The notes below the pieces were generated by a model. It ran no database searches. It was not told the origin of the DNA and was given only the letters and a program-made list of their open reading frames with translations. Below are positions 24,393-64,000 of a stretch of 64,000 bases of DNA, piece after piece; position 1 is the stretch's first letter; every line of letters begins with the position of its first letter. Made by a program: the position numbers and the translations under genes. The DNA is from Symbiodinium sp. CCMP2592 (Eukaryota; Sar; Dinophyceae; Suessiales; Symbiodiniaceae), in NCBI GenBank assembly GCA_905221615.1, contig CAJNDT010002902.1, positions 248,001 to 312,000 of the forward strand, in the 5' to 3' direction.

Positions 24393-24447
24393 AGGCGCTG
24401 GCTTTATGCTTTGCTTATTGGGGGAATGTGCTCACTGGCTTTATTTT

Positions 24448-25053: not shown

Positions 25054-25358
25054 CGCACCAAGCTTCAGACGTGGTCGATTGTGGGTGGGAGTGTGGGAGT
25101 GTAGGTTACGGAGGCAAAAGTGTTCAAAATGAAGGGTTTTTAGTCTTGGTAGTAATCTTGGAGTGATCGGGGCTTGGTTTCCAGCATTTGGTGATCCCCA
25201 GACCCCCCCGACCCCCGACCGCGCATTCGCGCAGAACCGCAGACCCTGCACCCAAGCCAGCCCCCAAACCCCGGCACCTCCCAATTCCCTGCCACTCAGA
25301 CCCCTGACCCCTGTCCGGCGTCACCGGCGCCATACTAAAGTGAATTCTTTTTTTGGTC

Positions 25359-25373
25359 GGGGGGGGGGGGGGG
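25359..25373 (+). repeat. G15 homopolymer
   Basis: Run of 15 G flanked by TTTTTTTGGTC and ACCC. Possible G-quadruplex, and also a likely place for sequencing error. Confidence 0.85.
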
Positions 25374-25374
25374 A

Positions 25375-26640
25375 CCCGTCAATTAAACCGATTAAACCGA
25401 CACCCACATTACAAACGAAATCATGCTGGAACGAACACCAGGAAAGTGGTGACTTCGTAAAAATCATTCTATGTGCACATGCTGCAGCTCCGACTCGTGT
25501 GTGCCTCCGCAGCTCACGTTTGCCCCGGACTCTTGTCTCCGGGACTCCGCAGCTTTAGGCTTCGGCCCCGGAAACTCAAGTTCAGCATTTACGCTCTTTC
25601 AACTCAGACAAGCCAGGCGAGGTTCTGTTTACGATCTCACAACTCAGACCGCAAGTTCATTTTCGAGGTTGTTGCATCCGTCCTCTGACGTCTTCAGGAT
25701 TGCTCCGAGTAAGGACTCTGTGGCAGGTCACTGGCGTGGATGGGCCATCCACAGGAAGCATCATGCACTCGGCCACGGTGGTGCATCTCACCGTTGCTCC
25801 ACCTCACAAAGGAGGAAACACTCACGGCACACGCCCCAGCAAAGGTTGTGGAGTCTGCGTGCCGCTTGGGGGCTTCGACTGCCGGATACCAGGAAGCCAC
25901 GCTCGCCGAAGATGCCTGGAGCACTCCTCAGCAACTGCAAACGCACTCCTCATTGAACGGTTTCCTGCATCTCCTGTCTTTGGACATTCCTGATGTGAGC
26001 TCTCCATGCTTCCAAGCATCACGGTCGCGACTACCATTCCATTCGCTTCAATCTCCACAATTCCATGCACCAGTACCACGAAATGGGTGCCTTGCCCAGC
26101 TAGCATGTGTTCCGGACATCAGACAAAGTCGTGGGACTAGCTAGGCCTGGCATTCCCTGCTGCAGGATGACCTGGTTCACCATGTAGGGTTGTTCATACC
26201 TGAGCACTCATCGGCTTGCAACATTTACCACGAGGGAACTGCTCGCATGCCGCAGCTGGCGGCTACAAATACGAGGAATCGACTCCAGCGCAGGATTGTG
26301 GACTTACAGGGGCTGGGCTCGATGCTGAGTTGGCGGGCGGGGAGTCCGAAATGTGTCAATAATCTCGGCCGGCTTCAGAAGGTAGATCGCTGGAGCATGC
26401 GTGACTTGATCAATCGCCGGAGGGTGTACTGGTCACATATCCGTTCCAGAGGCATCCTCGACTGTTCCGCCGCATTCTTGGACGGGCCAAACCATGCCAG
26501 CGGGGAGTAGCGACTTGCTGTGGCTCGGAGTACTTGGGCACATGAATAACAAGCAGAACATAGACTTCCGTCGCCTGACTCGGGAAAGTTTCTTCAGATA
26601 GCAGTCGCGCACATCGCGAGTTCTTCATTGATTAGGGTGC
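25375..26640. other. no clear gene
   Basis: Short frames only. I see nothing in this stretch that I would defend as an exon or a repeat. Confidence 0.35.
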
Positions 26641-26699
26641 GGCTTCTCGCTGATCTAGATCCGACTGGGCATACAAGCAGCGTTAGCAGCATGCTGGCT

Positions 26700-26900
26700 T
26701 GCTCTGCTTCCGGACGGCTCTGCTGGTTCTGCTAACGTGCAGCTTGGTCCAAGTTGCATGTTGTCCACCAGCATTCGAATAAAATCCTGACCCAGGGCCG
26801 TTCGAATGCAAGGATCCCGGTTCAGCCAGAAGCTCTCAGCAATCAGCTCAAGGGCTGGAAGTCCTGACTGAAGCCTCCCTCGCCCGCACTGGCTTGCTCC
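26700..26900 (-). CDS. probable exon, unrecognised
   Basis: The frame reads SGLPALELIAESFWLNRDPC followed by IRTALGQDFIRMLVDNMQLG, a protein-like amphipathic segment. It lies just downstream, on the same strand, of the cyclic-nucleotide-binding-like exons and may be a later exon of that gene. No family is recognised. Confidence 0.25.
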
Positions 26901-27064
26901 AATGCCAGAGAGGCCGCCTACAGCTGTGACTGTGAGTTGCACTCTTGTGCCAAGTCTGCCTCGCCTTCCTGCTTTGGCTGTGCGCCTCCACAATTGCCAT
27001 CATTCGCCTCAAAGGAGGGTGCATGAGAATGGGCCATGCCATGCATGCTTCCCCTGCTATTCAG

Positions 27065-27640
27065 CTAAGTGAGTGGCTCCTCCTCTTCCGGGAATTTATC
27101 GAGAACGGCCAAGAGCGCTTTGCGGCTTAGCGCCCGGATATCACAGACGGTGTCAGCCTTGTTTGCAGAGCCAGTCCCACATAAAATTTCGGCGGACGAC
27201 GGACGTCGGCTCCCATGGGTCCGAGTCGCCATGACGGTCTCTTTTCGCGTCTTGGAAATTCCCAGAGCCGCGAGGCCTCCAAAGCAGCTTCCTGGATGTA
27301 GCCGACTGAACCTAAGGAGCACCGTGACTCTGAAGCCAAGAGCCAGAGCAGTCCGGCGCAATATAACCAGGAGGCCGGTCGCTGCCACCTGGCCGGGCCC
27401 TAGTCAGAAGGCGCAACGACGAGCCGAGGGCTGAGACTGAGAGCCGCTCTTCGAAGAACTTTGCACTTGCCAAGCACCAGCACCTCTCACTTCACTTCAC
27501 GCTGTCCGCACGCGAAGGCCGGCGGCCGGCGGAGGCCAGATTTTCTCTTGTAGGCTTCGGACAAACATTTCCTCTCCAAAATCTCCTTCCTGCACGACAA
27601 CCTCATCTCGGGAGCAGATCCTGCGAGTACAAACTTCGGC
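27065..27640 (-). CDS. cyclic-nucleotide-binding domain exons
   Basis: Three pieces in the order expected for one CNBD. 27640-27560 has RRICSRDEVVVQEGDFGEEM, matching the first beta strands and the EGDxGxxM phosphate-cassette approach. About 27297-27229 has PGSCFGGLAALGISKTRKET, matching the GxxFGExALL...R block, though the usual Glu is Gly here, which would weaken nucleotide contact. 27161-27065 has ADTVCDIRALSRKALLAVLD and FPEEEE before a stop, matching the C-helix entry seen in EAG/CNG-type channels and PKA/PKG regulators. Frames change between pieces, consistent with introns. Gene boundaries are unresolved. Confidence 0.55.
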
Positions 27641-28500
27641 TTCTCTCGGGCGCGAGGGATCGGCCAGTCCTCTGCACGAAGTTGCCTCAGCTATGCGCGC
27701 ACCCTCTAGCACCACATGTTGTCACTATCACGCAGGTTTCCGCCAGGCTGCTGCTCAGCATCTCCTGGAACTCTTGACCGCAGTCAGCGAACATTGCAAT
27801 GCTTCGCCTGGCTCTGCTATGGGTGCGGCATCAATAAATGCCGAATGATGCTGGATGCTGGAAAGCTGCATGCCATCCATGTGTGGGCTAAGAAGCTGCA
27901 GGTGCCTGAGGCAGGGAGGCACTGCATCCAACGCAGCCGTACTTGAAGCTGGACCGCAAAACCCTCTGTTTTCGGGTGAGATCCATGAGACTTAGTCCCA
28001 TGTCAAGTTTACATGCCTGCGGCTGGATGTACACATGCCACTTCTTGACATGGACTGCCCTGGCTAAGGCTCTCGGAGATGTGTGAAACGCTGAACAAGG
28101 CGGACGCAGCCTCCGACTCCTTGATACTCGAAAGACAGAGCAGTTGTTACCGGTGTGGCTTACATGACGCATGTGCTTACATAGCGGGACATAGAGTGAC
28201 AGTTGATAGACTTATGCACGTGTCAACGCCAGGAATGGCCAAGGGCGAAATTCTAGGTGTCGGCTGGGAGAGCCTTCCGCTCTCCCAGAAGAAGCATCTT
28301 TTGACAATTCAATTGATTGCTGGTGCTAGGCCCGCATGTGTCAATGGAAAATCTTAAAGGGGGCCTGTCTTTGTACACTTCAGCCACGGCTCGGGCTGTG
28401 AATTAAGAGCACTATGTAGCTCGCAGGGCTGGGTGTGTTGACAGATGGAAAACTCCTGTGCGATATTTGCCCGATCGAACTCGACATGTCGTTCATAGCT

Positions 28501-35110: not shown

Positions 35111-37699
35111 TCATCCTGGCTTTGGGATGTTTGCTCCGGTTCGGAGCGGCTTTTTGAAGAAGGCCGGAGCCAACGGCAAGCGAGCGATCCGTGGGTTCCA
35201 AAGCTCGAGGCCCATGTTCCAACAAGCGGCCTTAGCGGCCTGATTGAGGCAAACAGCTTCCAGTCTTGTCGCCCCGATGTCCATCGCCCAGCGTTCTGCG
35301 AAGTCAACCAAAATCTTGGCTGCTCCCTGGTTCCGTGCTACTGGGACTAGCGCGGCATGCCATAAAGATGCCACTCTGGTCACGGTAGGTCGTTTTCTCC
35401 CAAACCAAAACGGCCAGCATTCCCCTGATGTATCACGGTTCATGCCTGCACGCACGCACACAACCCCAAGCACCTCGGCTCCGTCGGCTCCCGAGGTGCC
35501 ATCGAGCTGGAGCTGTTCCACCAAAACCACGGCCGCCGCCTTCGAATCCTTCCTCGCATTCTTCCATCCTTTTGGCGCCAACTCGCCGTGGCGGAGGTCC
35601 CAAGAGAGCAGTGCTCGGGCCAGCAGCGCGTGCAGGAAGTGCTGGAGCAGGACGAGCACTGCGTAGCACACCGAGGCCCTGAAGCAAACGTCTTTCTGCA
35701 GGCTTTCCAAACTCTCACCTGCAGGGTCCATGAACGCAATTTTCGTAAAGCACCAAGCACTGGCCACGAGGCTTACGGCAGGTGGTGCTCCAGGAGCATC
35801 TCTAGCTCTTAGAGTCGTGCAGTCACATGAACGCTTTCTCTTAGGTCTACAGGTCGGGCAACCACAGGCACCTGAATGCAAAGCGGTTGGCGAACTCCAA
35901 TCCAATCTCAGGAGGCTCAGCAGGAAAGCACAAGTTGCAAGCCAAGCCGGCGGCCCTGTGAGCAATAGCCCAGTCGTTTGCGGTACCATTTCTAGCAAAT
36001 GATGATGCTGAGTCCATATACTGGCCAAAGCTTGCCAGTCTTCATCCTCAGCCAATCGAGCTTGAAGCTTCCTACCTCTTGCCAGCTTCCCGTCATTGCA
36101 AGGGTCGCCAAGCCCGGCCGCCGAAGATAGCTGCATCGTTGATTTTTGAGCTATCAGCCACGCCGGTAGCACAAGCCCGAAAACCTCTGAAAGGCGACCC
36201 TGTAGAAAGACGGCGGACACCGAGTCCAAACCCAGGCTCTCCAAAGGCAGGTCGTCGCAAATAGCCTCATGCGGCAGAGCTGCAGCGACAACTGCTCTCA
36301 TGCCAGTCAGGGAATCCAGGGCACCGCCTGTCGAGTCTTCTTGGAGAGAGGCCTCGGCATTTGAAAGATGAAAGGTCTTCGTCGTCATAGAGGCCGCCCC
36401 GACGTGGGCGCCGCCTCTCACAAGATCTTTCAACTGTCGCATGAGGTGCTGCAGAGTGCTGGCAGAGATGATCTCAGGCCGGTAGACGAAGCTGACGTCG
36501 GTATCGCCACGACCACCAGGGCCGTCAGCCAAGAGCAGAATCTCCAAGTCGGCAAAACTGCTCCTGAACGCCGAACCCAAGGCCTCGGTGACCACAGCCC
36601 GGTCCAACTGGGGACGTCGTCGCCAGTCGTAGAAGACGTCGTAAAGAACCGACCGCTCCTCCCGCTCACAGAAGGCCTTCGCGATCTCCACGATTGGGGC
36701 GGCCCCATCGCGCCTTGCAGACTGCAGCTCAGCATGGACGTGATGGGCTGCCTGGAGCAACGAAGTGTCGGAAGGCGTTTTCAGACAGGCAAGAAGAGTG
36801 TTGGTGCAGGAGCCCACAATGTCCAAACCCTGTCTGTAAGACTGCGGCAAGCCAAAGACCAATCCGTGTCGCCAGCTTCGAAGTGAGAGTACGAACATGG
36901 CCAAGAAAAGCTCCAGTTCTGTCACATGCAACTCTGTAGCCGCACACCGCAGCGGAAGATGAAGGTGCTCCAGCAGGTGCTCGCTCTGTTTGCTTCCGGT
37001 AAAGCGCTTTCTTGGTTCGTCCCTGGGAGTTTGAATGGCAAACTCGCGGAGTGCTTTGACCCGGCGCAGAACAGCCGAGCTCCAAAGCCCCGAAGCCTCT
37101 GCACACCTCTGCCAATGGGCGAAGTCAGCCCTGTCCAATCTGTCCCTCACAGGGAGCCTGGACTTCTCGAAGGATGCATTGAACAGTTCGCAGAACTCAC
37201 AGACCAGGGCTTCCATGGACCGAACGTCCAGTAGAACTGGGTGCGCAGCAATACCGACCGTCAGCTTGGAATCAAGATGGGCACCAATCCTCACCGGTGG
37301 ATCGCCCAATGCGCCCACAGGTTCCCGGAGCTTTGCCAGGAAATCCCGCAGACACGTCTGAGGTCTCAGAAGACAAACTGCCGGGTTTGCGGTGTAAGCG
37401 GCCTCAAAAGTTGAAGAACACGAAGGCTTCGTGAAACAGGTCCTGCAAGCGATGTGTCCCTGCACAAGATCTCGCAATACGTCTTGGCATCCTGGCCATC
37501 CGCTGCCCCGTCCGCTGGCGGCCCGTGCAGCCAGCGGCGAAACTTCGGCCACCCAGCAGTGAAGGGGTTGCTCATCGCAGCACACTAGGAAGCCTTCTTC
37601 CAGGCATGAGATAGCAGTAGGAGCTGGAACCCAGAGAGGTCGGAGAATAAGTTGTGGCCAGTCCGACCAGCACTCCGGTGACTCCTCCTCCCTTTGCAT
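35111..37699 (-). CDS. NRPS condensation-carrier-GNAT fusion protein, 862 aa
   Basis: Uninterrupted frame. Residues about 100-430 follow a condensation domain: GIAAHPVLLDVRSMEAL at 149-165 stands where HHxxxDG is expected, with the second His kept and DG changed to DV. FGLPQSYRQGLDIVGSCTNT (282-301) matches the R...IGxxxNT motif, and DVSFVYRPEIISASTLQHLM (401-420) the C-terminal region. Residues 465-525 are a carrier domain with ESLGLDSVSAVFLQGRLSE, Ser493 being the expected phosphopantetheine site. Two apolar segments (577-599, 676-698) flank a cysteine cluster (CGCPTCRPKRKRSCDC). Residues 720-840 are GNAT-like (LVPVARNQGAAKILVDFAER, motif A). There is no adenylation domain. The degenerate C motif suggests a structural or altered catalytic role. 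The start at 37699 is not an ATG I can prove, and an upstream exon is possible. Confidence 0.7.
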   Translation of the reverse strand: MQREEESPECWSDWPQLILRPLWVPAPTAISCLEEGFLVCCDEQPLHCWVAEVSPLAARAASGRGSGWPGCQDVLRDLVQGHIACRTCFTKPSCSSTFEAAYTANPAVCLLRPQTCLRDFLAKLREPVGALGDPPVRIGAHLDSKLTVGIAAHPVLLDVRSMEALVCEFCELFNASFEKSRLPVRDRLDRADFAHWQRCAEASGLWSSAVLRRVKALREFAIQTPRDEPRKRFTGSKQSEHLLEHLHLPLRCAATELHVTELELFLAMFVLSLRSWRHGLVFGLPQSYRQGLDIVGSCTNTLLACLKTPSDTSLLQAAHHVHAELQSARRDGAAPIVEIAKAFCEREERSVLYDVFYDWRRRPQLDRAVVTEALGSAFRSSFADLEILLLADGPGGRGDTDVSFVYRPEIISASTLQHLMRQLKDLVRGGAHVGAASMTTKTFHLSNAEASLQEDSTGGALDSLTGMRAVVAAALPHEAICDDLPLESLGLDSVSAVFLQGRLSEVFGLVLPAWLIAQKSTMQLSSAAGLGDPCNDGKLARGRKLQARLAEDEDWQALASIWTQHHHLLEMVPQTTGLLLTGPPAWLATCAFLLSLLRLDWSSPTALHSGACGCPTCRPKRKRSCDCTTLRARDAPGAPPAVSLVASAWCFTKIAFMDPAGESLESLQKDVCFRASVCYAVLVLLQHFLHALLARALLSWDLRHGELAPKGWKNARKDSKAAAVVLVEQLQLDGTSGADGAEVLGVVCVRAGMNRDTSGECWPFWFGRKRPTVTRVASLWHAALVPVARNQGAAKILVDFAERWAMDIGATRLEAVCLNQAAKAACWNMGLELWNPRIARLPLAPAFFKKPLRTGANIPKPG

Positions 37700-52889: not shown

Positions 52890-53597
52890 TTACAGCTGTT
52901 GATCAGTATAGCCGGCAGCGATGTAGAGATCGCGCATGGCTCGGATGGCTGATGTGGCCTCGCTGCATGGTGTTGTCACTCTGCGTACCATGCGTGTGCG
53001 GGCCTGAAAACTGCTGCGAAGTGTTGCAACAGAGGTGGCTGACTGTGGGTGTAAAATATCCGCCTTGTGCAAAGTGCATTGATGCGTGAGGCTGCTGTGC
53101 TGAGGGTTTATTGCGAAACCCAGGAAAATGTTGGCAGGTTCAGTTTCAAGCTGAACCGGTGGTTTGTAAAAAGATGCATCAGTGAGCTGTGCAAAAGGAG
53201 GCAGTCGGGTCAGCTGTGCAGGTAAAAGAAGGACGCGGTTGTCGACGTATCTGGTAGCAAAAAAGTAAGCTTGATCCTGCTTGTTGTGGTCTGGAAAATG
53301 CTTGTGGTTCGTGAAAAGTTGTTTGTATGTGTGGTGCCAGCACTGTTCTTCTACAGCAACCACGATGTTGCATAGGGCTGGGCTGCAGGGCGAGCCCATA
53401 GGTGCTCCGCGAAATTGCTCAATGAGTGATGTACCGACAGTGAAATAGTTGAGTCGGAGCACTGCAATGATGAGTTGTGGTATGTGTTGTAAGTTGTAAT
53501 TGTATGCAAAGTTTGTTGCCGGAGGAGGCTTCTTGCTGCTTTTGTCTGCTTTTACCCCTGTGGACTCGATGTGTGGGGTCTTTCTGTGAGTGGTCAA
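52890..53597 (-). CDS. Penelope-like RT, C-terminal part (motifs B-E)
   Basis: Contains EQFRGAPMGSPCSPALCNIV, the RT motif B with MGSPxSP, then AYFFATRYVDNRVLLLP as motif C, where the usual second Asp of YxDD is Asn, then NIFLGFAINP like the motif D/E FLGF of Penelope RTs. The frame is +1 relative to the upstream half, with the join near 53,580. The protein ends SAIRAMRDLYIAAGYTDQQL. The Asn could mean a dead enzyme or a lineage-specific active site. Confidence 0.75.
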   Translation of the reverse strand: MTTHRKTPHIESTGVKADKSSKKPPPATNFAYNYNLQHIPQLIIAVLRLNYFTVGTSLIEQFRGAPMGSPCSPALCNIVVAVEEQCWHHTYKQLFTNHKHFPDHNKQDQAYFFATRYVDNRVLLLPAQLTRLPPFAQLTDASFYKPPVQLETEPANIFLGFAINPQHSSLTHQCTLHKADILHPQSATSVATLRSSFQARTRMVRRVTTPCSEATSAIRAMRDLYIAAGYTDQQL

Positions 53598-55674
53598 TGA
53601 AGAATTTGGAAGAGTGTAGTGGGTTCTTCTCTCTGTACCATCGAACCATGATGCTGTATGCTGAAAGAAACCGGCTCTGATCGACCGATGTAAAGAAGCC
53701 AGCCAAATCCTGATTGTACAGGATGTAATCTGTTGAGTCGTGTAGTTTCCTGCGCTGATGCAAGAAGAGTGCTGTTTGTTTGAGCTGTGTTATCCCGTCT
53801 CCTTGGTGAAAGGAGTTTGGGCATGCTTGAAGGGTCATCAGCTGCAGTACGTCTGCTAAGGCTTCCCATAATTTCCTGCCCATGGTGTCGATGAACGCCA
53901 CTATAGGACGTCCTTTCGTGAATTGCTTCTTTCTTTTCGGTAAAATGTAGGCACGTGGGATGCGTCCCCATTGTGGAAACGCCCATGTGTAAGCTGGTAG
54001 AAGACTGCGGATGTCTGTGTAGACATCGAAGTGGTGTTGTAGAGGTTGGCGCTGCGAGATCCGAAAGATCTCTTTGTCTAAAAAAGTGTTGTGTATGGCA
54101 GTGTGGTATAGTGCTGGGCAGTACCACGTGAGTCGGTTCGGGAAGTGATCTTCGCAATGGATGATGCCTGTTGGTATTTTGTGTTGGACTTGCTTGATCA
54201 TCTTGACCTGTAGTATGTTGTTTTGACTGCAGTGTGTATTGTGTTGTGGTATTTGTTCAGAGACAAAGTGCTTTGCAGTTTGATGGTTGTAAGGGAGTCC
54301 ATAGTGTCGATGCCATGTGCGTATGGCTCGGCATAATTGTGAGGCCAACTGTGTGGGCTTCTGAAGGCAATTGCTTTTGCCGGAGTATGCCAAAAATTGA
54401 TGTTGTGGTTGTAGTTCTGCAAGTTGGATAGCAATGTGATTGTGGAAGATGTGCTCCTGGGGTACTTGTGAGTGTAATGGTGAGCATGTACAGGGTGGTG
54501 GTGCATCAGGTTGCCATGTGGTGTGGGCATCGCGCCAATTGTGTAGAAGTTGTTGCATGGGTGGGTGCTTCTTGTAGACAGGTTTTGTGCTGGGAAGGTG
54601 GAATGGTGGAATGTGTTGTTTGTTGCTTGTTAAACGAGAGCGCAAATATTGTCGTAGTTGTTGGGTGAAGGTGGGGTGTAAGAGTGGCTGTAGGTAAATG
54701 GGTTTTGTGACAGGAGGTGGTTTTAGTCGTCGCTTCTTAAAGACGGTGTTGAGAGCTTTGTGAGCGTGTCTTCGGTCGCGTCGTGGTAAGTTGTTTGAGA
54801 GTTTGTGTAAAGCGTAAACTGTGGCTGCTGGTGTGTCTGAGCGAAGCAGTTGTTTTGTTGTGTCGAATCTGGTGCGAGTGTTGGAAGTAAGATGTGAGAC
54901 TGTGGTCCATGCCTGTTTTCTGGTGTTGAATAAGGTGGAATTGGTGAAGCTCCGAATGGAGTGGTGTAATTTGCCTCGGCGCTGCTTCGCCCATAAGGTG
55001 GCTGTGCCGTTGTGCTTGTTGTTGGCTGCTTTTGTGAAGCCGGAAAAAGCTCCTTTCATGTGTGATGTGATGTAAGGAAAGTTGAGCTTGGATTGGTGGT
55101 GCTGTATGAGAGTGTTCTCCGTGGCTTCCAATTGCTCTGTGGGTATGTTGGCTTGTAGTACAATTGGTGTGTATTGGTGGTAGCATTTGTGTTTACGCCA
55201 CCATCGTAAGGCAAGTTCGGCTTGTACAATCTTGTGTTGTTGAAGTTGCTTGAATTTTCGATTGCGTGTGCCCTCTCGTTGTGTGAGAGAGTGACTTGTG
55301 CTGCCGATGTAGACGTAGCCACGAAAAGGTTGTTGTGTGGTGACTCTGCAGTATACCACCTGTGGCTGACGAAAGAAAGAGAGTGTGTACGATGGAAAAG
55401 AAATGTTTGAATGTGCAAACAGTCTCTGCAGGTTGGAGAAATGTCCTTCCTCATGTTTGAGGTAGAAATGCTGTGTACGAAGTAACAAAGTCAGGCCTTG
55501 AAGCCAGAGTATGATTTGATGGAATTGTGTGGAGACTGGTTCTGCCAATGGTGCGACGAATTGTAAGATGGATCTGCCTTGATCCAGAATGCGTATGATG
55601 TTCTTGAATTGTTTTTGTCGGAAAATTGTTGTGTGATCTAGTGTCTGCCGGTGTTGAATCAAGTACTGTCTGAG
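53419..55674 (-). CDS. Penelope-like element: GIY-YIG-like domain and RT N-terminal part
   Basis: Residues about 112-197 of the frame that starts at 55662 hold FRGYVYIGSTSHSLTQREGT, NRKFKQL, LALRWWRKH and IPTEQLEATENTLIQHHQSK, a GIY-YIG nuclease pattern with the expected Arg and late Glu. RT follows: RAYILPKRKKQFTKGRPIVA, LWEALADVLQLM, then motif A NQDLAGFFTSVDQSRF. The N-terminal nuclease placement is that of the permuted Penelope clades (Naiad/Chlamys type), not classical Penelope. A TGA at 55675-55677 interrupts the same frame just upstream. The real C-terminus is in the frame at 53597-52890; the last ~60 codons here are out-of-frame. Confidence 0.75.
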   Translation of the reverse strand, partial: LRQYLIQHRQTLDHTTIFRQKQFKNIIRILDQGRSILQFVAPLAEPVSTQFHQIILWLQGLTLLLRTQHFYLKHEEGHFSNLQRLFAHSNISFPSYTLSFFRQPQVVYCRVTTQQPFRGYVYIGSTSHSLTQREGTRNRKFKQLQQHKIVQAELALRWWRKHKCYHQYTPIVLQANIPTEQLEATENTLIQHHQSKLNFPYITSHMKGAFSGFTKAANNKHNGTATLWAKQRRGKLHHSIRSFTNSTLFNTRKQAWTTVSHLTSNTRTRFDTTKQLLRSDTPAATVYALHKLSNNLPRRDRRHAHKALNTVFKKRRLKPPPVTKPIYLQPLLHPTFTQQLRQYLRSRLTSNKQHIPPFHLPSTKPVYKKHPPMQQLLHNWRDAHTTWQPDAPPPCTCSPLHSQVPQEHIFHNHIAIQLAELQPQHQFLAYSGKSNCLQKPTQLASQLCRAIRTWHRHYGLPYNHQTAKHFVSEQIPQHNTHCSQNNILQVKMIKQVQHKIPTGIIHCEDHFPNRLTWYCPALYHTAIHNTFLDKEIFRISQRQPLQHHFDVYTDIRSLLPAYTWAFPQWGRIPRAYILPKRKKQFTKGRPIVAFIDTMGRKLWEALADVLQLMTLQACPNSFHQGDGITQLKQTALFLHQRRKLHDSTDYILYNQDLAGFFTSVDQSRFLSAYSIMVRWYREKNPLHSSKFFIDHSQKDPTHRVHRGKSRQKQQEASSGNKLCIQLQLTTHTTTHHCSAPTQLFHCRYITH

Positions 55675-55677
55675 TCA

Positions 55678-55905
55678 CTCTGTCATCTGACTGATGATAG
55701 CGACAAGTTTGATCAGTGCTGGGGAGCCAAATTTGTCGATGGCTTTGGGTGGGACACCCCAGGCGACTGCAGCGGTCTGCAGTGTCTGCTCTTGTGAGTT
55801 GCTGAGTGAAGGGAATTCCGAAGCAACAATGTCCAGGTACTTTTTTACCTGTGTTTTTTGTTTGTCGCTGATGCCTTTGATGGCACCAAACCATCTGGTA
55901 ATGTG
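55678..55905 (-). CDS. N-terminal extension of the Penelope-like protein, cut by a TGA
   Basis: In the same frame as the GIY-YIG/RT part and separated from it by one TGA (55675-55677). It reads WFGAIKGISDKQKTQVKKYL, DIVASEFPSLSNSQEQTLQT and AAVAWGVPPKAIDKFGSPAL, a compact helical domain. There is no ATG near its start; a TTACCAG acceptor-like site just before WFGAIK suggests a lost or spliced upstream exon, or truncation where copia element 2 begins. Confidence 0.5.
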
Positions 55906-56375
55906 TTAAAGAACGGGCTTCACTAAGCTTCCTACTCTCAAACTTAAGCGGTCACTTTTCCTTGTGGGTCACTGTGTCCGCTGGTCTCGAGCCTTGCACG
56001 TCGCGTGTGCGTGACGGCTGTTCCTGTACATTAACTGCACTGCACTAACTGTGTTACTGTTCCTGGCAAGATGTTTAACACCCCGCCTTCGGAGTTAGCG
56101 AAAGTTCCTCGACTGAGGTGACTCCGACTTTTCCTGTCAACAGTAAACACACTGCAGTTCCTTTTCACTTGCAAAACAAACACTCTGCCTCATCGCAAAC
56201 ATATGTTCCTATGTTCACTCGCAATCCTCTCCAAGGTTGCTCGACTGTACAAAAGACGTTCCTTTACTATACTTAGATCACCACAGAAACAAAAAGGGGC
56301 TGTGCCACGGTTCCTGTGTCCTGCTGCTTCTTTCCTCGGCTCTCTGGCCTCAGTACTGCTCGCTGTTCCTTTGCT

Positions 56376-57860
56376 TCACTGGAAGGTCACTTCGCCGTCG
56401 TCGACCTTGTAGACTTTTACTCCTTCTTCTTCGTTGCTGACTTCTTTCTGTTCCTTGAGTTCTTGCTCTAGCCACTCTGCACGCTGCCTTGCTTGTGCTA
56501 TGCACTTCTCTTTTCCTTGCTTGTCTCTTGATCCTGCTTTCCAACCTGTTTCCTTTGATCCGGAATACCAGTACCACTGCGTCTTGGCTTCGTTCCACTT
56601 CCACTGGTAGTTCTTGTTCTGGAAACCGTAGACTGCAAACCAGTTTCCTTCAAGCTCTCCTTTTCCTTTTCCTTTCATGAACGATTCTTCGTTCACTGGT
56701 CCTTTGGCGGAAAGTTCTGGGTCGTCCTTTCCTCCTTTCCTTTGCTGCTGCTGTGTGACACTCGGTGGCTCCTTTCCTGTTCCTTGTGCTTCTGGCTTCT
56801 CCTCTTCCTTTGCTGGTGTTGTGTCTGGTTCCGTGGGTGCCTGCGACCCGGCTGCTGATCCTCTGCTCTCAAGCTCCTGTGTAAGGCTTGCAATTCTTTC
56901 TTTATCCTCTTTGCTTTCCTTCATCATCTCCTTCATCATTTCTTCAAGCTTCTGGATCCTGTCTGCTTCTCCTGATCCTGTTGCTGTTGATGCTGCTGCC
57001 TTCTTCTCTGCTTCCTTCTTGGCAATGTACGCTGACGATGCCTTTTGATCTTCCTCTCTCTTCTTCCTGGCTTCCTTCTCTTTTCTTTTCTTCTCCTGTT
57101 CCTTTCTTTCCTTTTCCTCTTTGGCTGCTGCGGCTGCTGCTTTTTCCTCTTCTTCTTTTGCTGCCGCTGCTTCGGTCTCCTCCTTTTCCTTTGCTTCTCT
57201 CTCTGCTTTTGCTTTGGCTGCTGCTTCTACCTCTCGCCTTCTCTCGGCGGCTGCGGCTGCTTCCTGTCTTGCTGCTTCCTTGTCTCTCTTCTCCTGCTCT
57301 TCTGCTGCCTCTTCCAAAATCCTTCTTGCTTTGGCAATCTGCTCCTCCTTTGCCTTCTTCTCCTCTTCTGCTTTGGCTTTTGCTTCCTTCTGCTCCTTTG
57401 AGATCTTGTCCTGTTCATCCCAATATTTGCGATCATCTTCATCTCGAGGTCGAAATCCTGTGCTTTCTGCTCTTGCCTTTGGCTTTCCTTTTCCTTTTCC
57501 TTCCTTCTTTCCTTTTGTTCCCTTCTCGTGCTTGTACGTGTAGTCCTTGTCGATGTGGATCTTTTCTCCTGTGACTCTGTGCTGCTTGTAGATCTCGCCG
57601 TTCTCGGAGTATTCCTTCCATTCGCTGCTGTAGTCGTAGGGGTACGGAAACTGCTTCTTTTCCTCTTCTTTCTCCTTTAGCCTTTGCTTGCTTTTGGCGT
57701 TGATCTCCGCGATCTTCTTCTTCCTTCTTTCTTCCTTTGCTTCCTCGCTTTCTTCTTCCTCTGCTGCTGCTGTTCCTTCTTCTGCTTTGGCTTCTTCGGG
57801 GTACTCCCCGGGATCTTCTCCTCCAACGTAGCTGTCCACGTAGGCCTCGTTCTCGTTCTC
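56376..57860 (-). CDS. element 2 extra region, part 2: charged coiled coil with W-rich ends
   Basis: About 490 codons. Begins (in frame before 57839) with acidic DSYVGGEDPGEYPEEAKAEE, then PYPYDYSSEWKEYSENGEIY, a WW-domain-like tryptophan/tyrosine block, and a Lys/Gly tract (KGTKGKKEGKGKGKPKA). A long Glu/Lys/Ala helix follows (EEKAAAAAAKEEKERKEQEK and similar), then RIQKLEEMMKEMMKESKEDK. The C-terminal part is aromatic (NWFAVYGFQNKNYQWKWNEA, TQWYWYSGSKETGW) and ends KVYKVDDGEVTFQ. No catalytic motif. Joined to part 1 by a -1 step near 57,865. Likely structural or RNA-binding, an inference from composition only. Confidence 0.7.
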   Translation of the reverse strand, partial: ENENEAYVDSYVGGEDPGEYPEEAKAEEGTAAAEEEESEEAKEERRKKKIAEINAKSKQRLKEKEEEKKQFPYPYDYSSEWKEYSENGEIYKQHRVTGEKIHIDKDYTYKHEKGTKGKKEGKGKGKPKARAESTGFRPRDEDDRKYWDEQDKISKEQKEAKAKAEEEKKAKEEQIAKARRILEEAAEEQEKRDKEAARQEAAAAAERRREVEAAAKAKAEREAKEKEETEAAAAKEEEEKAAAAAAKEEKERKEQEKKRKEKEARKKREEDQKASSAYIAKKEAEKKAAASTATGSGEADRIQKLEEMMKEMMKESKEDKERIASLTQELESRGSAAGSQAPTEPDTTPAKEEEKPEAQGTGKEPPSVTQQQQRKGGKDDPELSAKGPVNEESFMKGKGKGELEGNWFAVYGFQNKNYQWKWNEAKTQWYWYSGSKETGWKAGSRDKQGKEKCIAQARQRAEWLEQELKEQKEVSNEEEGVKVYKVDDGEVTFQ

Positions 57861-58717
57861 GCGAAGTAGTCCTGGCTTTCTTCCTGTTCTTGGAGTCCTT
57901 CGAAGTAGCTCCTGTCTGACCAGTTCCTTATATCGTCTTCTCCTTTGTGTTCCTGGGAGGTAGGTGACGTAGCTCTCGAAGGTGCTGTTCCTTGTCCGTG
58001 TCCTTCACGACGTAGTTCACCTTCTAGTTCTCGGTCCTTGGCTTCTCTTTTCCTTTGTTCCTCTTCGTCTTCTTCTTCTTCTTCTTGTTCCTCTTGCTGT
58101 TGCTCGTAGAAGTCCTGCATCATCTGGTTCAGCTGTTCCTTCACGGCATCACATGTACCTAGGACGAAGTTCATGTGTTCCTTGACCTGCTTCCGGTCTC
58201 TTTCGTTCTCTTCGGCCATTTCCTGAACCTGGTGCTTCACGCTGTAGATTTGGGATGTCAAACTTTCCACACATCCTGCAACGTGTTCCTGACTTTTGCG
58301 CAAACGCGCAGCTTCCTCTGTGTTCTTCCTGATCGACTCCGCGATCAAGTTCCTTTCTTCTGTAGCAGTCTTCAACGTGACTGCCGCTTCTTTCAAGGTC
58401 TGAAGTTCCTTGACGATCTCTTCTGAGCTTTTGCTTGAACTCGCGCTCGCTTCCATGGCTGCTGAGGTTCCTGGTAAGGTGCCTTGACCTGCTACTGGGC
58501 GTACTAGTTCCTGGATACCTGAGCGTTCCGCGAGTGTTCCGCAGAGTTCCTTGAGCTGTGAAAGCATCTCACTACATGTTGTTCCATGCGCTGTTCCTGC
58601 AAACGTTCCTAGCTCACATGCACTCGTGTCACTGCATATGCCGTCCTGCTCGCATGCACTTGCACAGCAGAAAACATGTTCCTGAAAGTCTGCCTGAAAC
58701 TCTTTTCTTGAACACAA
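57677..58717 (-). CDS. element 2 extra region, part 1: coiled-coil protein after RNase H
   Basis: Overlaps the end of RT-RNase H by about 109 bp in the -1 frame. A natural ATG start is at about 58,568 (MLSQLKELCGTLAERSGIQE). It continues with a heptad-rich segment (EEIVKELQTLKEAAVTLKTA, TEERNLIAESIRKNTEEAAR, SLTSQIYSVKHQVQEMAEEN) and an acidic run (QQQEEQEEEEEDEEEQRKRE). The last ~50 residues, Lys/Arg-rich, are out-of-frame readings. In plant Sirevirus copia elements a coiled-coil-bearing env-like ORF sits in the same place after RNase H. This is a positional analogy, not proven homology. Confidence 0.65.
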   Translation of the reverse strand: MCSRKEFQADFQEHVFCCASACEQDGICSDTSACELGTFAGTAHGTTCSEMLSQLKELCGTLAERSGIQELVRPVAGQGTLPGTSAAMEASASSSKSSEEIVKELQTLKEAAVTLKTATEERNLIAESIRKNTEEAARLRKSQEHVAGCVESLTSQIYSVKHQVQEMAEENERDRKQVKEHMNFVLGTCDAVKEQLNQMMQDFYEQQQEEQEEEEEDEEEQRKREAKDRELEGELRREGHGQGTAPSRATSPTSQEHKGEDDIRNWSDRSYFEGLQEQEESQDYFARTRTRPTWTATLEEKIPGSTPKKPKQKKEQQQQRKKKARKQRKKEGRRRSRRSTPKASKG

Positions 58718-60780
58718 CTCTCAAAACACTGTTCCTTGAAACTCTGAATCTGAAGACTGTCCGAAATACCTGAAATTCCTGCAAACAACAAAGCTGCAAA
58801 AGACAAAGTTCCTGGGCTCTTGATCATCCTTACAACTGCTTTAGCTTGTGTTTGGGCCTTGTGTTCCTTGAGCTCTTCTCTACCTACTGGTTCGTTCTCG
58901 CTGGTCTGAAAACCTAGCCAGTGTAACAACAGTCTGATACGCTTCGCTGAAAGGGGCTTGGTTCCTATATCAGCTGTGTTTTCCTTGGTTCCTACTGGGT
59001 GAACACTAATTGTTCCTTCTTTGTGGAGGTCTTGAAGAAAAAGGGTCCTGATCTGCAAATGCTTGACTCTACCTACACCTTGCCTTGTAATAATTCCTCT
59101 AGCTGCAGAAGAATCCATATACAAGTGTACCTTGCATTGTTTCCTGGTCAAGAATTCCACTGCTTCCTTCAACAAGATAGAATCTGACGCTGCTGACGCT
59201 CCTGCGTAGTACTCTGCTTCACCACTGCTCAAGCTAACCGACTTCTGGTTCCTAGAAAAAGAGTAAATGCACTGACCGTCTAAGCAAACAATTCCTGAAG
59301 ATGTTGAGCGCCTTGTGTCCTTCTTTCCTGCCCAATCTGAATCACTGAAGACTTCCAAAAGGTGGTGTTCCTTGGGCCTTGTTCCTGTAAAGTCGTAGTT
59401 ACCATTCCTAATGGATTCATTGAGATTACTGAGTCCTCTGGGTGTCTTCCTGTACACTAGATGGTATCCTTCAGTTCTCGACATGTACTGCACTAGGTGG
59501 ACTAAGTGCTTCCAAGAACCATGTGTTGGTTCCGACATCTTGGAGGCTAAACCTCTCACGGCAAACTGCACGTCAGGGCGGTCCTGACTGACATACAAGA
59601 GTATGCCAACGCTCTTCCTGAACGATGCTGCTTGTTCCTGGTTCAAGGTCTGAGTGTTGTCCTGTTCCTGCGACTCTTGGGTGCACGGAGTTGGCTTTGA
59701 GGCTTTGCTGGTAAGCTTCAGTTCTTCCTTAAGCTTCACAAGATACTTCGGGTCACTCGTGATGTGGAGCTCGTGATTGTGGTAGCTGAATTTCCTTTTA
59801 AGGAATCGGATTGTCTGGTGTGACTCTCCTACTTCAAGTTCCTGCTCTGTCAAGAAGGGGCCTTCAACCTTTAGCTCGTAGGTTTCTCTTAGCTTTCCTA
59901 GCTTGGGCTCTAGGTGCCTTGTTTTCCCTGCTGCCTGAATGTCATCTACATGCACAACAAGTATGCTGTTCCTGTCGTCACGAAACAAAGTAGGGCATGC
60001 TTTGCTCCTATCAAATTTCTGCTCTTTGAGGGTTCCTGCAAAATGATCACTCCATAGTAGTGCTGCATCTCGCTGTCCTGGAAGTACTCTTAGCAGTAAC
60101 AAACCTTCGTTCCTACAACTAGGGTCCTGGTCGCCAAACAGATCCACATATTCCTTTGGGAATTGACATGCACATCGTGTCCTTTGTGGTACCTGCAAGA
60201 ATGCGTCCTTGACATCAATGGAGTACAAGGCGTGTTCCTGTTGTAGTCCCAAAATAGGGATAAGTCTCACCAACGATGCGCTTGTTGCTGGGCTGAATGT
60301 GTCATTCCTTACTTCTGCTGCTTTGAACTCTCTCGCGACTAGCCTAGCTCTCCTTGTCCATCGGCCGTTCCTGAATCGCCAATCGAAGACGAATTTCGTC
60401 GTCAACCACTTTGTTCCTTGGTTGCTCTCTTCTTCTTCTGTCTCTCTCTCCTCTTCTCTCTCGAGTTCTTGCAAGGGTTTCCTTGCCAATGCCTTCATCT
60501 CGGTGAGTCTGTTGATCTCTGTGAGCATTGCCTCACGATCCAGTTCCTGCAACTGGGCTTCTGCAACTTCTGGAGGTCCAGAATCTTCGCTCTTGAAGAT
60601 GTCTTGTTCCTCGTCGGAATCGCCAATGTCCGAATACGAATCTTCCCAGAAAATGTCCTCTGTACCTGGTTCTGCTTCAGGTAATTCTTCATCATTGTGC
60701 TCAAATACTCTTCCTACGTTGAACGGAGGGTACTTCTTCTTGGGAGAATCAATCTTTGGGATCTTGGAACCTGTTCCTAC
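58609..60780 (-). CDS. element 2 copia reverse transcriptase-RNase H
   Basis: The frame is open from the integrase end (about 60,790), so the leading acidic linker (about 60,780-60,560, FWEDSYSDIGDSDEEQDIFK) belongs to it. RT blocks: ARLVAREFKAAEVRNDTFSP, YSIDVKDAFLQVPQRT with the first Asp, and ILVVHVDDIQA with both Asp of the box. RNase H blocks: LLEVFSDSDWAGKKDTRRST, VSLSSGEAEYYAGASAAS, HLYMDSSAARGI and VKHLQIRTLFLQ, a full set. The C-terminus carries an apolar stretch (LSFAALLFAGISGI) absent from ordinary copia ends. Confidence 0.93.
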   Translation of the reverse strand, partial: VGTGSKIPKIDSPKKKYPPFNVGRVFEHNDEELPEAEPGTEDIFWEDSYSDIGDSDEEQDIFKSEDSGPPEVAEAQLQELDREAMLTEINRLTEMKALARKPLQELEREEERETEEEESNQGTKWLTTKFVFDWRFRNGRWTRRARLVAREFKAAEVRNDTFSPATSASLVRLIPILGLQQEHALYSIDVKDAFLQVPQRTRCACQFPKEYVDLFGDQDPSCRNEGLLLLRVLPGQRDAALLWSDHFAGTLKEQKFDRSKACPTLFRDDRNSILVVHVDDIQAAGKTRHLEPKLGKLRETYELKVEGPFLTEQELEVGESHQTIRFLKRKFSYHNHELHITSDPKYLVKLKEELKLTSKASKPTPCTQESQEQDNTQTLNQEQAASFRKSVGILLYVSQDRPDVQFAVRGLASKMSEPTHGSWKHLVHLVQYMSRTEGYHLVYRKTPRGLSNLNESIRNGNYDFTGTRPKEHHLLEVFSDSDWAGKKDTRRSTSSGIVCLDGQCIYSFSRNQKSVSLSSGEAEYYAGASAASDSILLKEAVEFLTRKQCKVHLYMDSSAARGIITRQGVGRVKHLQIRTLFLQDLHKEGTISVHPVGTKENTADIGTKPLSAKRIRLLLHWLGFQTSENEPVGREELKEHKAQTQAKAVVRMIKSPGTLSFAALLFAGISGISDSLQIQSFKEQCFESCVQEKSFRQTFRNMFSAVQVHASRTAYAVTRVHVS

Positions 60781-63700
60781 ATCATCAAATCCATTTTCCT
60801 AAGAGGTGCTGGTCCTCTAGCTGAAAGAAGTTCACTTGCCATTGCACTGTCTGGAATGAGTTCTTCTTCTGAGGCTGCGTCCATTTCCTTACTGCTGCTA
60901 CTAGAAGACGTTGGGTCTGAAGCTGCTTCGTCGTGTTTGTTTTGGTCGTCGTATTCCTGCTCAAGTTCTTCTTCTGCCTTTCTCTTGCTCTGTGCCTGCT
61001 TCGCTTTGCTCTCTAGGTAGGTTGTCCTAGTAGGTCCTGACTTCCCTGCAGAGTCCCCGCCTTGGATGACAATCGGTCCTGCGATCGGTCCTGAAGGTGC
61101 TGAAGGTGCCGAGTCCTCAACCGACTGTTCCTGAGTTGTTCCATCCACGACAGGTGGCGCCTCTGCAATTGGTCCTGGAATGTTCTTCCTGGGAATGTTC
61201 CTTGTTGCCAGTGTAGTGTGCTTCACTTCCCAAGTATGAATTCCTACACTGCTGATTCCTTTCACGTCGAAGTGTTCCACACAACGTTTTGCGCTACGGC
61301 TCGTCTTGATGCCGTCCATGTGCCACGTAATGAAAAGGTTGTTGTCTGTTTTTCCTAAAAACACTCCTCTCAACCAAATAGGGTCACCTTTCCTATTGCC
61401 ACGAGTTCCTGAACGATTGGTCAAAACCAAAAGTGATTCGCCAAATTCGGCGAGCTGGCCCTCGTAAGGCCTTCCTGCCATGAACTCATACGGAGTCATT
61501 CCTGTGGAGGAATGGCGATGGTACCTGTTCAAGGTCCATGCCGAGTGCCTGAAAGCCCAACTGAAGATTGGATGTGTATGAGCAATATATGTTCCTGTTC
61601 TGTGTTCAAGGTGCCTAATCAAGGTTGTTCCTTGTCTCCTAATGGTTTGGATTGCTCTCTCTGCCATGCCGTTGGTTTCCTTCTGGCCACTGACTGCGTC
61701 CTGCAAGACTGTTCCTAGACCTAAAGCTGCTCTCTGCTTCTGGATGACTTGCTTCAGCTTCATCATTGTTCCTTCGTTGTCTGCCTTCAAGTTGATAGTT
61801 CCGTATCCAAGTTGAGTACTCAAGTAGGTCACTCCTTCGCAAAGGTGCTCTACAAGATCTTTTCCTTTAGATGCTGTCGGGATACAGACCATGTTCCTAC
61901 TCCAAGAATCAACACACACAAGACATACTGCCGCTGGTGCCTCATCATGACTTGTTCCTGTAAAACAGAAATCCATACAGAAAGTTGGTCTCGAAGATCT
62001 TTCCTTCTCTGGGTTCTCACGAAGGTGTGGAGACTCTTTTCCTTTGCATGCTACACACGTCGGACACCAAGATGCATAAGGTAAGTGTGTGAGATTATGC
62101 ACTGCAACTTCCTCCGGCTTTGGCTGTTTGGGTACCTTCAGAGGTTCAGCTTCTAGAAACTCCTTGTACTTCTTCTGGCCTGAAACAAGTTCCATGTGCC
62201 TTTCTGCTTCCATGATGGATCTACTGAGCCTTCTGAGGATCTCTTGCTTAGATCCAGCTTTTGAAACTCCTAGTTCCTTGCACAGTTCTCTCAGGGCCTT
62301 GAGGCTGTTCTGCTGGTTGTACTCATGACCATTGAATGTAAACGACAGTTCTCCTGCAAGTTCGTGCCTGTGCGCTGGTGCTTGGGCCTCTGAGGTCTCT
62401 TCCTGTTCTTCTTCCTGTTCTGGAATCGTGTCCAGTTGGTGAACCTTCTGTTTTGGTCTTCTGGCCTTGGGGTTCACTGGTTCGATGAGTTCGAATACAC
62501 TGCGTCCTGTCCAAGATAAACCTCCTAGTGGTTCTGGGTCTCTGTGAGGCTCATCCAAAGTCCAGAACTTGTCATCCTCAAAGAAATCCTTGTTGATCGG
62601 TTCTTCTCCATATGTGTACCTGTCTGGTCTGAGGTTTCCTATGTCCACTGGAATGTCATTGGTATCTCGAGGATTGAACAAAGTCTTCCTCAACGAGTTA
62701 TGGTACCTCGTGAGTGTGGTGCCATCCATGCTGATTGACCATGCATCCTCAGTGTACTCTTCAAACATCTTTCGATCTTCATCTTCCTTGGGGGTGCCTA
62801 TGAGGTTCAGCGGAAATTCCTTGAGCGATACTAGCGTAAGTGTGCGATACTCCTTGCTACCATCGAAGATTGTTCCAAACGGTTCTTCAAGTTCCTCAAA
62901 CATGATGCTGTGATGCAACAAATACCACTGATCATCATCCTCAATAAGCACTGCTCGATATGCGAACTTTCCTGGTGGAAACATCAAGTAAGTATCAACG
63001 TGTTCTGAGGTTCCTAGGCTGAAGTGGACTTGGTAAGGGTCTCGCCAGTTGGTCCAACCAACACGCTGTTCTTCAATGAGTTCCTTCAAGTTCTCGCACA
63101 AGTACATAGGGATAGGTTTTGCTTCTGCTTCCCAGTTGACTGCTCTCACAAAGGCTTTTGTTGTAAGTGAGTTGTTGTTGTAGTTCACTGCGATCTTGGT
63201 TGTTCCTTCTGTTAGGAAAGTGCCTGTTGCTGTTCCATCTCTGAACTCCCAGCCTTTCTTCAACAGTTTACCTACTGCCAAAAGAGGGTGCACAACCGAT
63301 GAAATCAAGAACACTTCTTCAACCTTCACAATGTTTCCTTGAATATCCCGAAACTCAACTTCAATAATCCTTTGGTCTGAAACCTTAATTCGGGATCCTT
63401 GCGCATCTCGCAAAACTACCTTGGTAGTGTTGGGTGCTTTCCTTCCGTACTTCTTCATCCACATTGGTGCCAACGAAATGTCGGCTCCTGAATCCAGCAC
63501 AACCTCGATCTCTCGAGTTCTCGTGTTCCTCGCTGCACGCGCAAACCTAGTAATGGTCCTTGAGGGTGCTGTTCTCTCTACTCTGTTCCTTCTAGGAGGA
63601 TGGTGACATCCGTTCTCACATTCCTGCATGTCTGGGTGCCACGGTGTTTCATGACATCCATTGGGACACTCAAAGTAGTATCCACGGTCCTGAGTTCCTA

Positions 63701-64000
63701 TCGGAGTTCCTTCTAGGTGCCATTGCAACCATGCATCATCACTCACCTCATCACAGTCCTGAAACTCATCATCTTCATCACCAATCCAAAACTCTTCTGT
63801 CTCACTTCTCTCTTCCTGAACTTCTTCACCAACAACCCGCAAAACTCTTCCGAAGTACTCAATCTCTATCTCATCAGAGTTCTCACTCATCTCGAATTCC
63901 TCCGGAAAGCTTGTGGGCTCGTCTCCCATGTGGTACATGGAGACCATCCTAATCACTGGTCTTTGGGTTCCTTGGCTTGCTTGGCTTTGGCTTGTTGAGG
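60777..64000 (-). CDS. element 2 copia protease-integrase with SAP-like motif (5' partial)
   Basis: The frame has no stop up to the window edge, so the apparent start at 63956 (a GTG) is not real. A cysteine/histidine-containing stretch (GYYFECPNGCHETPWHPDMQ, then ECENGCHH) precedes the protease REIEVVLDSGADISLAP (about 63.5 kb). A SAP-like helix pair lies at about 62.31-62.22 kb (LKALRELCKELGVSKAGSKQ, EILRRL). The integrase zinc site is VHNLTHLPYASWCPTCVACK (about 62.1 kb); its core has TFCMDFCFTGT, LKADNEGTM and NGMAERAIQTI for D, D and E. It ends in an acidic Ser-rich tail. The step into RT is -1 at an A4 run (60794-60797 on the plus strand as TTTT). Confidence 0.93.
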   Translation of the reverse strand, partial: STSQSQASQGTQRPVIRMVSMYHMGDEPTSFPEEFEMSENSDEIEIEYFGRVLRVVGEEVQEERSETEEFWIGDEDDEFQDCDEVSDDAWLQWHLEGTPIGTQDRGYYFECPNGCHETPWHPDMQECENGCHHPPRRNRVERTAPSRTITRFARAARNTRTREIEVVLDSGADISLAPMWMKKYGRKAPNTTKVVLRDAQGSRIKVSDQRIIEVEFRDIQGNIVKVEEVFLISSVVHPLLAVGKLLKKGWEFRDGTATGTFLTEGTTKIAVNYNNNSLTTKAFVRAVNWEAEAKPIPMYLCENLKELIEEQRVGWTNWRDPYQVHFSLGTSEHVDTYLMFPPGKFAYRAVLIEDDDQWYLLHHSIMFEELEEPFGTIFDGSKEYRTLTLVSLKEFPLNLIGTPKEDEDRKMFEEYTEDAWSISMDGTTLTRYHNSLRKTLFNPRDTNDIPVDIGNLRPDRYTYGEEPINKDFFEDDKFWTLDEPHRDPEPLGGLSWTGRSVFELIEPVNPKARRPKQKVHQLDTIPEQEEEQEETSEAQAPAHRHELAGELSFTFNGHEYNQQNSLKALRELCKELGVSKAGSKQEILRRLSRSIMEAERHMELVSGQKKYKEFLEAEPLKVPKQPKPEEVAVHNLTHLPYASWCPTCVACKGKESPHLRENPEKERSSRPTFCMDFCFTGTSHDEAPAAVCLVCVDSWSRNMVCIPTASKGKDLVEHLCEGVTYLSTQLGYGTINLKADNEGTMMKLKQVIQKQRAALGLGTVLQDAVSGQKETNGMAERAIQTIRRQGTTLIRHLEHRTGTYIAHTHPIFSWAFRHSAWTLNRYHRHSSTGMTPYEFMAGRPYEGQLAEFGESLLVLTNRSGTRGNRKGDPIWLRGVFLGKTDNNLFITWHMDGIKTSRSAKRCVEHFDVKGISSVGIHTWEVKHTTLATRNIPRKNIPGPIAEAPPVVDGTTQEQSVEDSAPSAPSGPIAGPIVIQGGDSAGKSGPTRTTYLESKAKQAQSKRKAEEELEQEYDDQNKHDEAASDPTSSSSSSKEMDAASEEELIPDSAMASELLSARGPAPLRKMDLMM

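Follow-up and report, generated by a model that had tools for sequence, protein, structure and literature searches.

A dispersed AGGAAC hexamer in a dinoflagellate-type copia retrotransposon suggests selection on the sense RNA

The 64,000-nucleotide (nt) stretch of Symbiodinium sp. CCMP2592 DNA analysed here (contig CAJNDT010002902.1, positions 248,001 to 312,000; hereafter the window) contains at its end an incomplete copia-type retrotransposon, the sense strand of which carries one hexamer, AGGAAC, in large excess. Selection on this word appears to be the best reading of the sequence, because 30 close relatives of the element carry the peptide signature of AGGAAC in three reading frames, also at positions that do not align with the sites of the window copy. 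It is quite possible, although we hold this view tentatively, that AGGAAC is a lineage-specific cis-acting word of this dinoflagellate-type copia element that is selected on the sense RNA, is read by a protein and marks the RNA as self.

Abundance, strand and frame of the AGGAAC word

A direct count on the plus strand between 56019 and 63975 gave 68 copies of GTTCCT, the complement of AGGAAC, and none of AGGAAC itself. The first-pass annotation of this DNA had reported about 75 GTTCCT from a hand count and no AGGAAC on this strand; the excess and the absence both hold, and the figure is corrected to 68. The window boundary cuts the element, so 68 is the count for the part inside the window and not for the whole element. 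A first-order model of the same interval predicts 6.0 GTTCCT, with a maximum of 17 in 500 runs, and AGGAAC is the hexamer furthest from that model (z 23.8) among sense-strand hexamers with at least eight copies. The remaining 56 kb of the window contain 10 GTTCCT and 8 AGGAAC, both below first-order expectation (16.9 and 12.8, respectively); in a scan of 4 kb windows, similar hexamer counts were observed elsewhere only in simple repeats. The sharp onset noticed at 56,019 is likewise real, with the first GTTCCT starting at 56020, eight copies in 56019-56375 and none in 55690-56018.

Non-overlapping coding segments hold 57 of the 68 copies and the non-coding 3' end holds 8. More than one reading frame is used, as had been proposed: AGGAAC encodes Arg-Asn in 11 cases, [KQE]-Glu-[QHLPR] in 25 and x-Gly-Thr in 23, a total that is 59 rather than 57 because two sites lie in the overlapping ends of open reading frames (ORFs). 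One more copy spans the stop codon of the protease-integrase frame (60773-60778). Copies per kb number 5.9 in the protease-integrase frame and 10.4 in the reverse transcriptase (RT) frame. The linker part is denser, at 18.2, ORF D has only 2.7, the 3' non-coding end reaches the highest value, 22.4, and the next 329 nt contain none. The word is therefore dispersed, but the earlier description of scatter through the whole element does not extend to most of ORF D, where only two copies are found between those at 56450 and 57772. The base that follows AGGAAC is A in 40 of the 68 copies, the clearest flanking bias, and there are weak preferences just upstream. The commonest single-letter variants are AGGAAA (40 copies, 18 of them in ORF D) and AGGAAG (29 copies, 13 in ORF D), every other variant occurring at most 14 times, and outside ORF D AGGAAC is commoner than either.

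Protein sequence and codon use

Protein sequence and codon use alone can be ruled out as the source of the word for three of the four ORFs and for the non-coding cluster. The 57 copies in the coding segments compare with 24.3 ± 3.9 in codon-preserving shuffles (maximum 38 in 2,000 shuffles), and AGGAAC is the top hexamer by z in this test. Within ORFs, the protease-integrase frame (18 observed, shuffle mean 6.4), the RT-RNase H frame (20 and 7.8) and orfC (17 and 6.8) each exceed all 2,000 synonymous-codon shuffles. The claim that protein sequence does not explain the word is thus borne out, also by the eight copies in the non-coding end. The codon-preserving shuffle had itself been put forward as a check on that claim; it fails to reproduce the count overall and does reproduce it for ORF D alone (4 AGGAAC seen, 4.1 expected). 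Among the peptide contexts that are able to hold AGGAAC (GT, RN and [KQE]E[QHLPR], the last abbreviated xE), 59 of 97 do so, overlapping ORF ends being counted twice.

Spacing

In the 357 nt of the non-coding 3' end the eight AGGAAC compare with a shuffle mean of 0.18 and a maximum of 4 in 5,000 shuffles, and the related words AGGAAA, AGGAAG and AGGAAT occur there 2, 0 and 0 times. The sites of the 3' part are also evenly spaced. The coefficient of variation (CV) of the gaps is 0.24 in 56000-56460 as against 0.84 for random placement, none of 5,000 random placements being as even, and it remains low in 57760-59020 (0.55 versus 0.94, p 0.003) and in 59000-61000 (0.58 versus 0.91, p 0.02). Gaps of 35-75 nt make up 29 of the 67 (15-18 expected, p at most 0.0006) and gaps below 25 nt make up 4 of the 67 (12.5 expected, or 8-10.7 with p 0.003-0.05 when sites are drawn from the positions of AGGA, GGAA, AGGAA or GAAC); these bins were picked after the gaps had been inspected.

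Tandem duplication was considered as the source of the 3' array and rejected, as the repeat search, at its settings, lists no direct-repeat family there. G-to-A hypermutation was also set aside, on the basis of argument alone. The C-terminal linker of two relatives (P0030 and P0041) contains short Gly-Thr-rich in-frame peptide repeats like ADTSACALGTCVGTV, the copy number of which differs between relatives, and such repeats may spread the word through local duplication.

The signature in related proteins

Relatives were compared as proteins and were drawn from the best 120 of 259 matches, with groups set by hand from identity: 27 close (30 with P0125-P0127, these 30 being 75-87% identical to the window element), 16 mid and 75 far. 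P0037 and P0042 fall outside all three groups (whole-protein ratios 2.6 and 1.15), and P0071 and P0083 were grouped as far, although, with 73% identity over 25% of the query and 78% over 24%, respectively, they look close. The relatives share kinship, which inflates z-scores, and only ranks are used because they are not independent.

In the 27 close relatives GT, RN and xE are enriched 3.4-, 3.3- and 2.7-fold over shuffled sequences, and the reversed-peptide controls give 1.2, 0.7 and 1.3. The values for GT, RN and xE are 1.55, 1.16 and 1.64 in the 16 mid relatives and 1.5, 1.14 and 1.27 in the 75 far ones. When all 4,096 hexamers were scanned blindly for such a three-frame signature, AGGAAC ranked first both by weakest frame and by sum, in the 30 close relatives as well as in a set of four representatives (P0005, P0016, P0030 and P0126). 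For the mid group its ranks by these two measures were 174th and 133rd, and for the far group 100th and 133rd. Residues aligned to the sites of the window copy were then masked as a guard against mere inheritance of those sites. In the 30 close relatives AGGAAC still led by sum and came fourth by weakest frame, and in the four representatives it kept first place by both measures.

The RT tree, built from 79 of 173 qualifying entries (identity of at least 38%, plus every fourth of the remainder in list order), joins the window copy and 16 relatives in one clade (100/100) with signature ratios of 2.0-4.5, whereas its sisters P0021 and P0043 have ratios of 1.7 and 1.4. Residues encoded by AGGAAC show lower conservation than the other residues in RT (0.665 versus 0.784, p 0.05) and, in a comparison with three relatives, in protease-integrase (0.679 versus 0.805, p 0.036); the difference in orfC is not significant (0.264 versus 0.292, p 0.29). 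At new positions the contexts exceed their reversed controls in orfC (GT 17 versus 5, RN 12 versus 0, xE 66 versus 35) and in protease-integrase (7 versus 2, 2 versus 0 and 18 versus 9), as does xE in RT (59 versus 38). Nine clusters of 3-11 proteins from other clades gave no comparable signature for a word of their own, although power is low in the small ones.

RNA structure and candidate reader

RNA folding gives AGGAAC an unpaired probability of 0.197, as against 0.205 for permuted words (p 0.72); compared with the average hexamer the word is more open (p 2.6e-5), but compared with its own permutations it is not. Some of the 3' sites can be drawn by eye in small hairpins, but the 3' end as a whole folds no better than its shuffles (z 0.32), and a search of Rfam gave no matches. 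A structural model of the C-terminal extension places two three-stranded sheets on either side of a helix of ~150 residues, at low confidence (mean predicted local distance difference test score 63.3, predicted template modelling score 0.30). By our own reading of this model, the two sheets recall WW domains.

Proposed selection on the sense RNA

The pattern is strand-specific and frame-independent, is even towards the 3' end, includes non-coding sequence, is shared by a clade and is mobile. The best explanation for this combination is that the sense RNA is under selection. Because positions turn over at the protein level, selection would act on the presence of the word and not on fixed sites; a word that is kept while its positions turn over is what selection on the sense RNA would be expected to produce. 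Wherever the protein permits, selection would thus retain scattered copies of AGGAAC, many with A as the next base, over a part of the sense RNA that reaches from the protease region, if not from further upstream, to the 3' end. The word would be read mainly by its sequence, and not by its fold, by an RNA-binding protein; one that the element itself encodes is more likely than a host protein, since the signature belongs to one clade. Two candidates for this reader are the extension that follows RNase H and Gag, which in P0126 has a CCHC knuckle and a GKGKGK stretch. A large number of weak sites may together flag the full-length element RNA as self for packaging or for protected handling. The first-pass annotation had likewise proposed selection on the RNA; selection for the word is supported by the shuffles and by the three-frame signature in relatives, but these do not choose among the packaging, splicing or export, and self-recognition functions that it had listed.

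A more specific form of this proposal, which we regard as conceivable but doubtful, is a self-recognition code: an exact hexamer every ~50-100 nt, present in every frame as well as in the non-coding end, that the element's own Gag or extension would read, with the code shaping the polyprotein sequence and its positions turning over. The search for how retroelements recognize their own RNA usually centres on a single structured signal close to the 5' end. If the code is real, a linear hexamer of at least 68 copies, kept across a clade as a word and not in place, would constitute a simple, testable self tag and would clearly exemplify how an RNA code can shape the protein encoded by the same RNA. 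The blind three-frame scan can seek such words from protein databases alone, in other elements too. In the open-licence literature we found no account of AGGAAC in retrotransposons, nor of AGGAAC as a motif of an RNA-binding protein.

Known systems resemble the pattern in part. DNA uptake sequences and Chi/KOPS are short exact words dispersed in coding sequence as marks of self or orientation, but they act on bacterial DNA, whereas the present word belongs to a eukaryotic retroelement and apparently acts at the level of RNA. MS2 and other single-stranded RNA viruses have multiple dispersed packaging signals for which the spacing between signals matters (PMC6281560). As in those viruses, many copies of one motif lie on the sense RNA within coding sequence; the viral signals described there, however, sit in stem-loops and vary around a core, while the word found here is an exact hexamer for which folding does not support a stem-loop context.

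Several observations weigh against selection on the sense RNA. In the codon-preserving shuffle test AGGAAC is not alone, as AGGAAA (38 versus 19) and GAGAAC (15 versus 4.7) are also in excess, and on the minus strand of 56376-63956 AGGG (4 versus 43) and GGGA (12 versus 45) are depleted; the bias is wider than one word, and the AGGAAC reading alone does not account for the strong avoidance of AGGG and GGGA. Evenness is limited to the 3' part: 61000-64000 is not even (CV 0.91 versus 0.92), all 67 gaps taken together have a CV of 1.06 versus 0.97 for random placement, and in 59000-63990 short gaps are about as frequent as expected (2 versus 2.7). Display of AGGAAC in hairpins or loops, which is usual for the packaging signals of viruses, is not supported by folding. 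Pfam and PDB searches with the C-terminal extension, one of the candidate readers, gave no match.

Among the relatives, new positions in RT are barely above the reversed controls for GT (24 versus 20) and RN (15 versus 10). A cluster at 39-46% identity (P0031, P0052, P0070 and P0073) has signature ratios of 3.0, 2.8, 1.7 and 1.8, although AGGAAC ranks only 77th and 56th there in the blind scan, and ratios are also raised in P0153 (3.0) and P0037 (2.8), neither of which is close, and in P0136 (2.5), P0046 (2.4) and P0146 (2.2). Finally, the Gag part of P0126 (285 residues) is almost without the signature (GT 1, RN 1, xE 0), which counts against the proposal because sites would be expected near a 5' packaging region.

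Alternative explanations

A role in host RNA processing is unlikely, but less so than the other alternatives. On the sense RNA, AGGAAC would be bound by host factors of the SR type or resembling U1, and the dispersed sites would curb cryptic splicing or premature 3' ends, or aid export of unspliced RNA, where splice-site rules are relaxed. Exonic splicing enhancers are sites for SR proteins that are normally degenerate and general in host exons; the purine-rich ones resemble AGGAAC in being short, frame-independent sense-strand words within coding sequence, but differ in that here it is mostly one word in one element clade. Experiments that selected SR-protein sites reportedly gave AGGAC- and GAAGAAC-like winners, which would fit this reading. 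The word does belong to the purine-rich GGA/GAA type, the excess of GAGAAC and AGGAAA would fit a degenerate splicing-factor site, and the sites end where the 3' end of the RNA would fall. Dinoflagellate splice donors include GC and GA besides GT (PMC11453091). Against this, the rest of the window, with exons and other sequence counted together, is poorer in AGGAAC and GTTCCT than expected, a single exact hexamer dominates the non-coding end, and the signature is found in one copia clade, though a host factor should serve other elements too.

It is improbable that a mutational or codon-context preference makes AGGAAC common without any function. The coding strand is purine-rich, and in the codon-preserving shuffle test AGGA is in excess (220 versus 153) while AGGG and GGGA are depleted, all of which would fit such a preference. 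It would not readily produce the evenly spaced non-coding cluster, in which AGGAAC far outnumbers the other AGGAA words, its predominance over AGGAAA and AGGAAG outside ORF D, or the finding that the full hexamer is the top three-frame signature in close relatives.

Slightly less probable still is a role in reverse transcription, in which each AGGAAC would serve as a short purine-rich primer or as a landmark for RNase H, so that plus strands start at many places, as an extreme form of the multiple polypurine tracts of Sireviruses. Sireviruses, a plant Ty1/copia genus, carry on average four copies of the octamer AGGGGGAG per element near the 3' long terminal repeat (LTR), limited to the linker and rare elsewhere (PMC2829016). 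The likeness is that of a copia element with a repeated purine-rich sense word that becomes denser near the 3' end and has, in that source, no settled role. Priming would further explain why the word is restricted to the sense strand and stops near a possible terminal polypurine tract, and it does not require accessible RNA, consistent with the unsupported loop display. However, AGGAAC, with six letters ending in C, is shorter than known tracts and unlike them, it lies mostly in coding sequence and is not confined to the linker, and the possible terminal tract of this element is AAGGAAAAG and not AGGAAC. By word and by position alike, the element thus departs from the Sirevirus pattern.

A protective tag on the DNA or the transcript, by which the element would escape surveillance by host small RNAs or chromatin, is very unlikely: a strand-specific dispersed word in coding and non-coding sequence of one clade would suit such a tag, but nothing in the analysis favours it over protein binding.

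Organization of the element and neighbouring features

The features of the element are listed in Table 1. Its RT matches RVT_2 (PF07727) with 41.8 bits against a cut-off of 31.6 in Pfam, as expected of Ty1/copia (Pseudoviridae). The order appears to be protease, integrase, RT and RNase H, of which RT is assigned by the Pfam profile and the other three by eye only. Proteins of relatives cover 63998-57279 in tblastn, and P0125 is 80% identical along the entire protease-integrase frame. Most relatives are proteins encoded on ENA contigs. Named relatives among the best 120 of the 259 matches include Symbiodinium RE1 and TNT 1-94 proteins at 39% identity, and Polarella proteins are among the 120 of 269 matches listed for P0021; the element is therefore of dinoflagellate type. 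Searches of viral and prokaryote contigs gave no DNA relatives.

Relatives join frames that are separate in the window copy. RNase H and the extension lie in a single frame to the end of the extension in P0011 and P0025, RT, RNase H and most of the extension in one frame in P0005, and the end of integrase and RT in one frame in P0006. By comparison, the window copy has breaks near 60780, 58610-58720 and 57680-57840. In P0126 a Gag-like region, with the CCHC knuckle and the GKGKGK stretch recognized by eye, lies upstream of the first residues present in the window.

Table 1. Features of the copia-type element in the window
Feature	Coordinates	Strand	Evidence or remarks
Copia-type retrotransposon, incomplete	56019..64000	minus (sense)	RVT_2 match; tblastn of relatives; 5' part past window end
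68 AGGAAC (GTTCCT on plus)	56020..63972	minus	Direct count
Protease-integrase frame, 1059 residues, 18 AGGAAC	60777..63956	minus	DSGAD protease motif and integrase by eye
RT-RNase H frame, 647 residues, 20 AGGAAC	58609..60552	minus	RVT_2 by Pfam; RNase H by eye
orfC, linker and coiled-coil part of C-terminal extension, 17 AGGAAC	57677..58717	minus	18.2 per kb (non-overlapping part)
ORF D, Lys/Glu/Ala-rich end of C-terminal extension, 4 AGGAAC	56376..57839	minus	Also 18 AGGAAA and 13 AGGAAG
Non-coding 3' end, 8 AGGAAC	56019..56375	minus	Gaps in sense direction 55, 52, 53, 48, 53, 45, 39 nt
AAGGAAAAG then TG, possible terminal polypurine tract and LTR start	55955..55963	minus	Guess from reading; window without second LTR to compare

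Directly downstream of the copia element, also on the minus strand, lies a separate retroelement (52890-55900), in which GYVYIGST reads by eye like a GIY-YIG endonuclease placed before an RT-like part (ATRYVDN); Pfam gave no match. The arrangement is reminiscent of Penelope-like elements in which an endonuclease lies at the N-terminus. In this neighbouring element, at 50-56 kb, no word of the kind of AGGAAC stands out. A weak match to the copia RT of P0022 (21% identity, E 7.6e-6) at 4628-5458 on the minus strand is perhaps the copia element 1 of the first-pass annotation, and its strand has no excess of AGGAAC. An 862-residue ORF at 35111-37699 on the minus strand matches Condensation and acetyltransferase (GNAT) and, at a borderline score, PP-binding; it looks like a fragment resembling non-ribosomal peptide synthesis. 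The words TACTAC and GTACTA, present 58 and 50 times in an AT-richer stretch at 24001-28000, apparently belong to a simple-repeat or minisatellite array.

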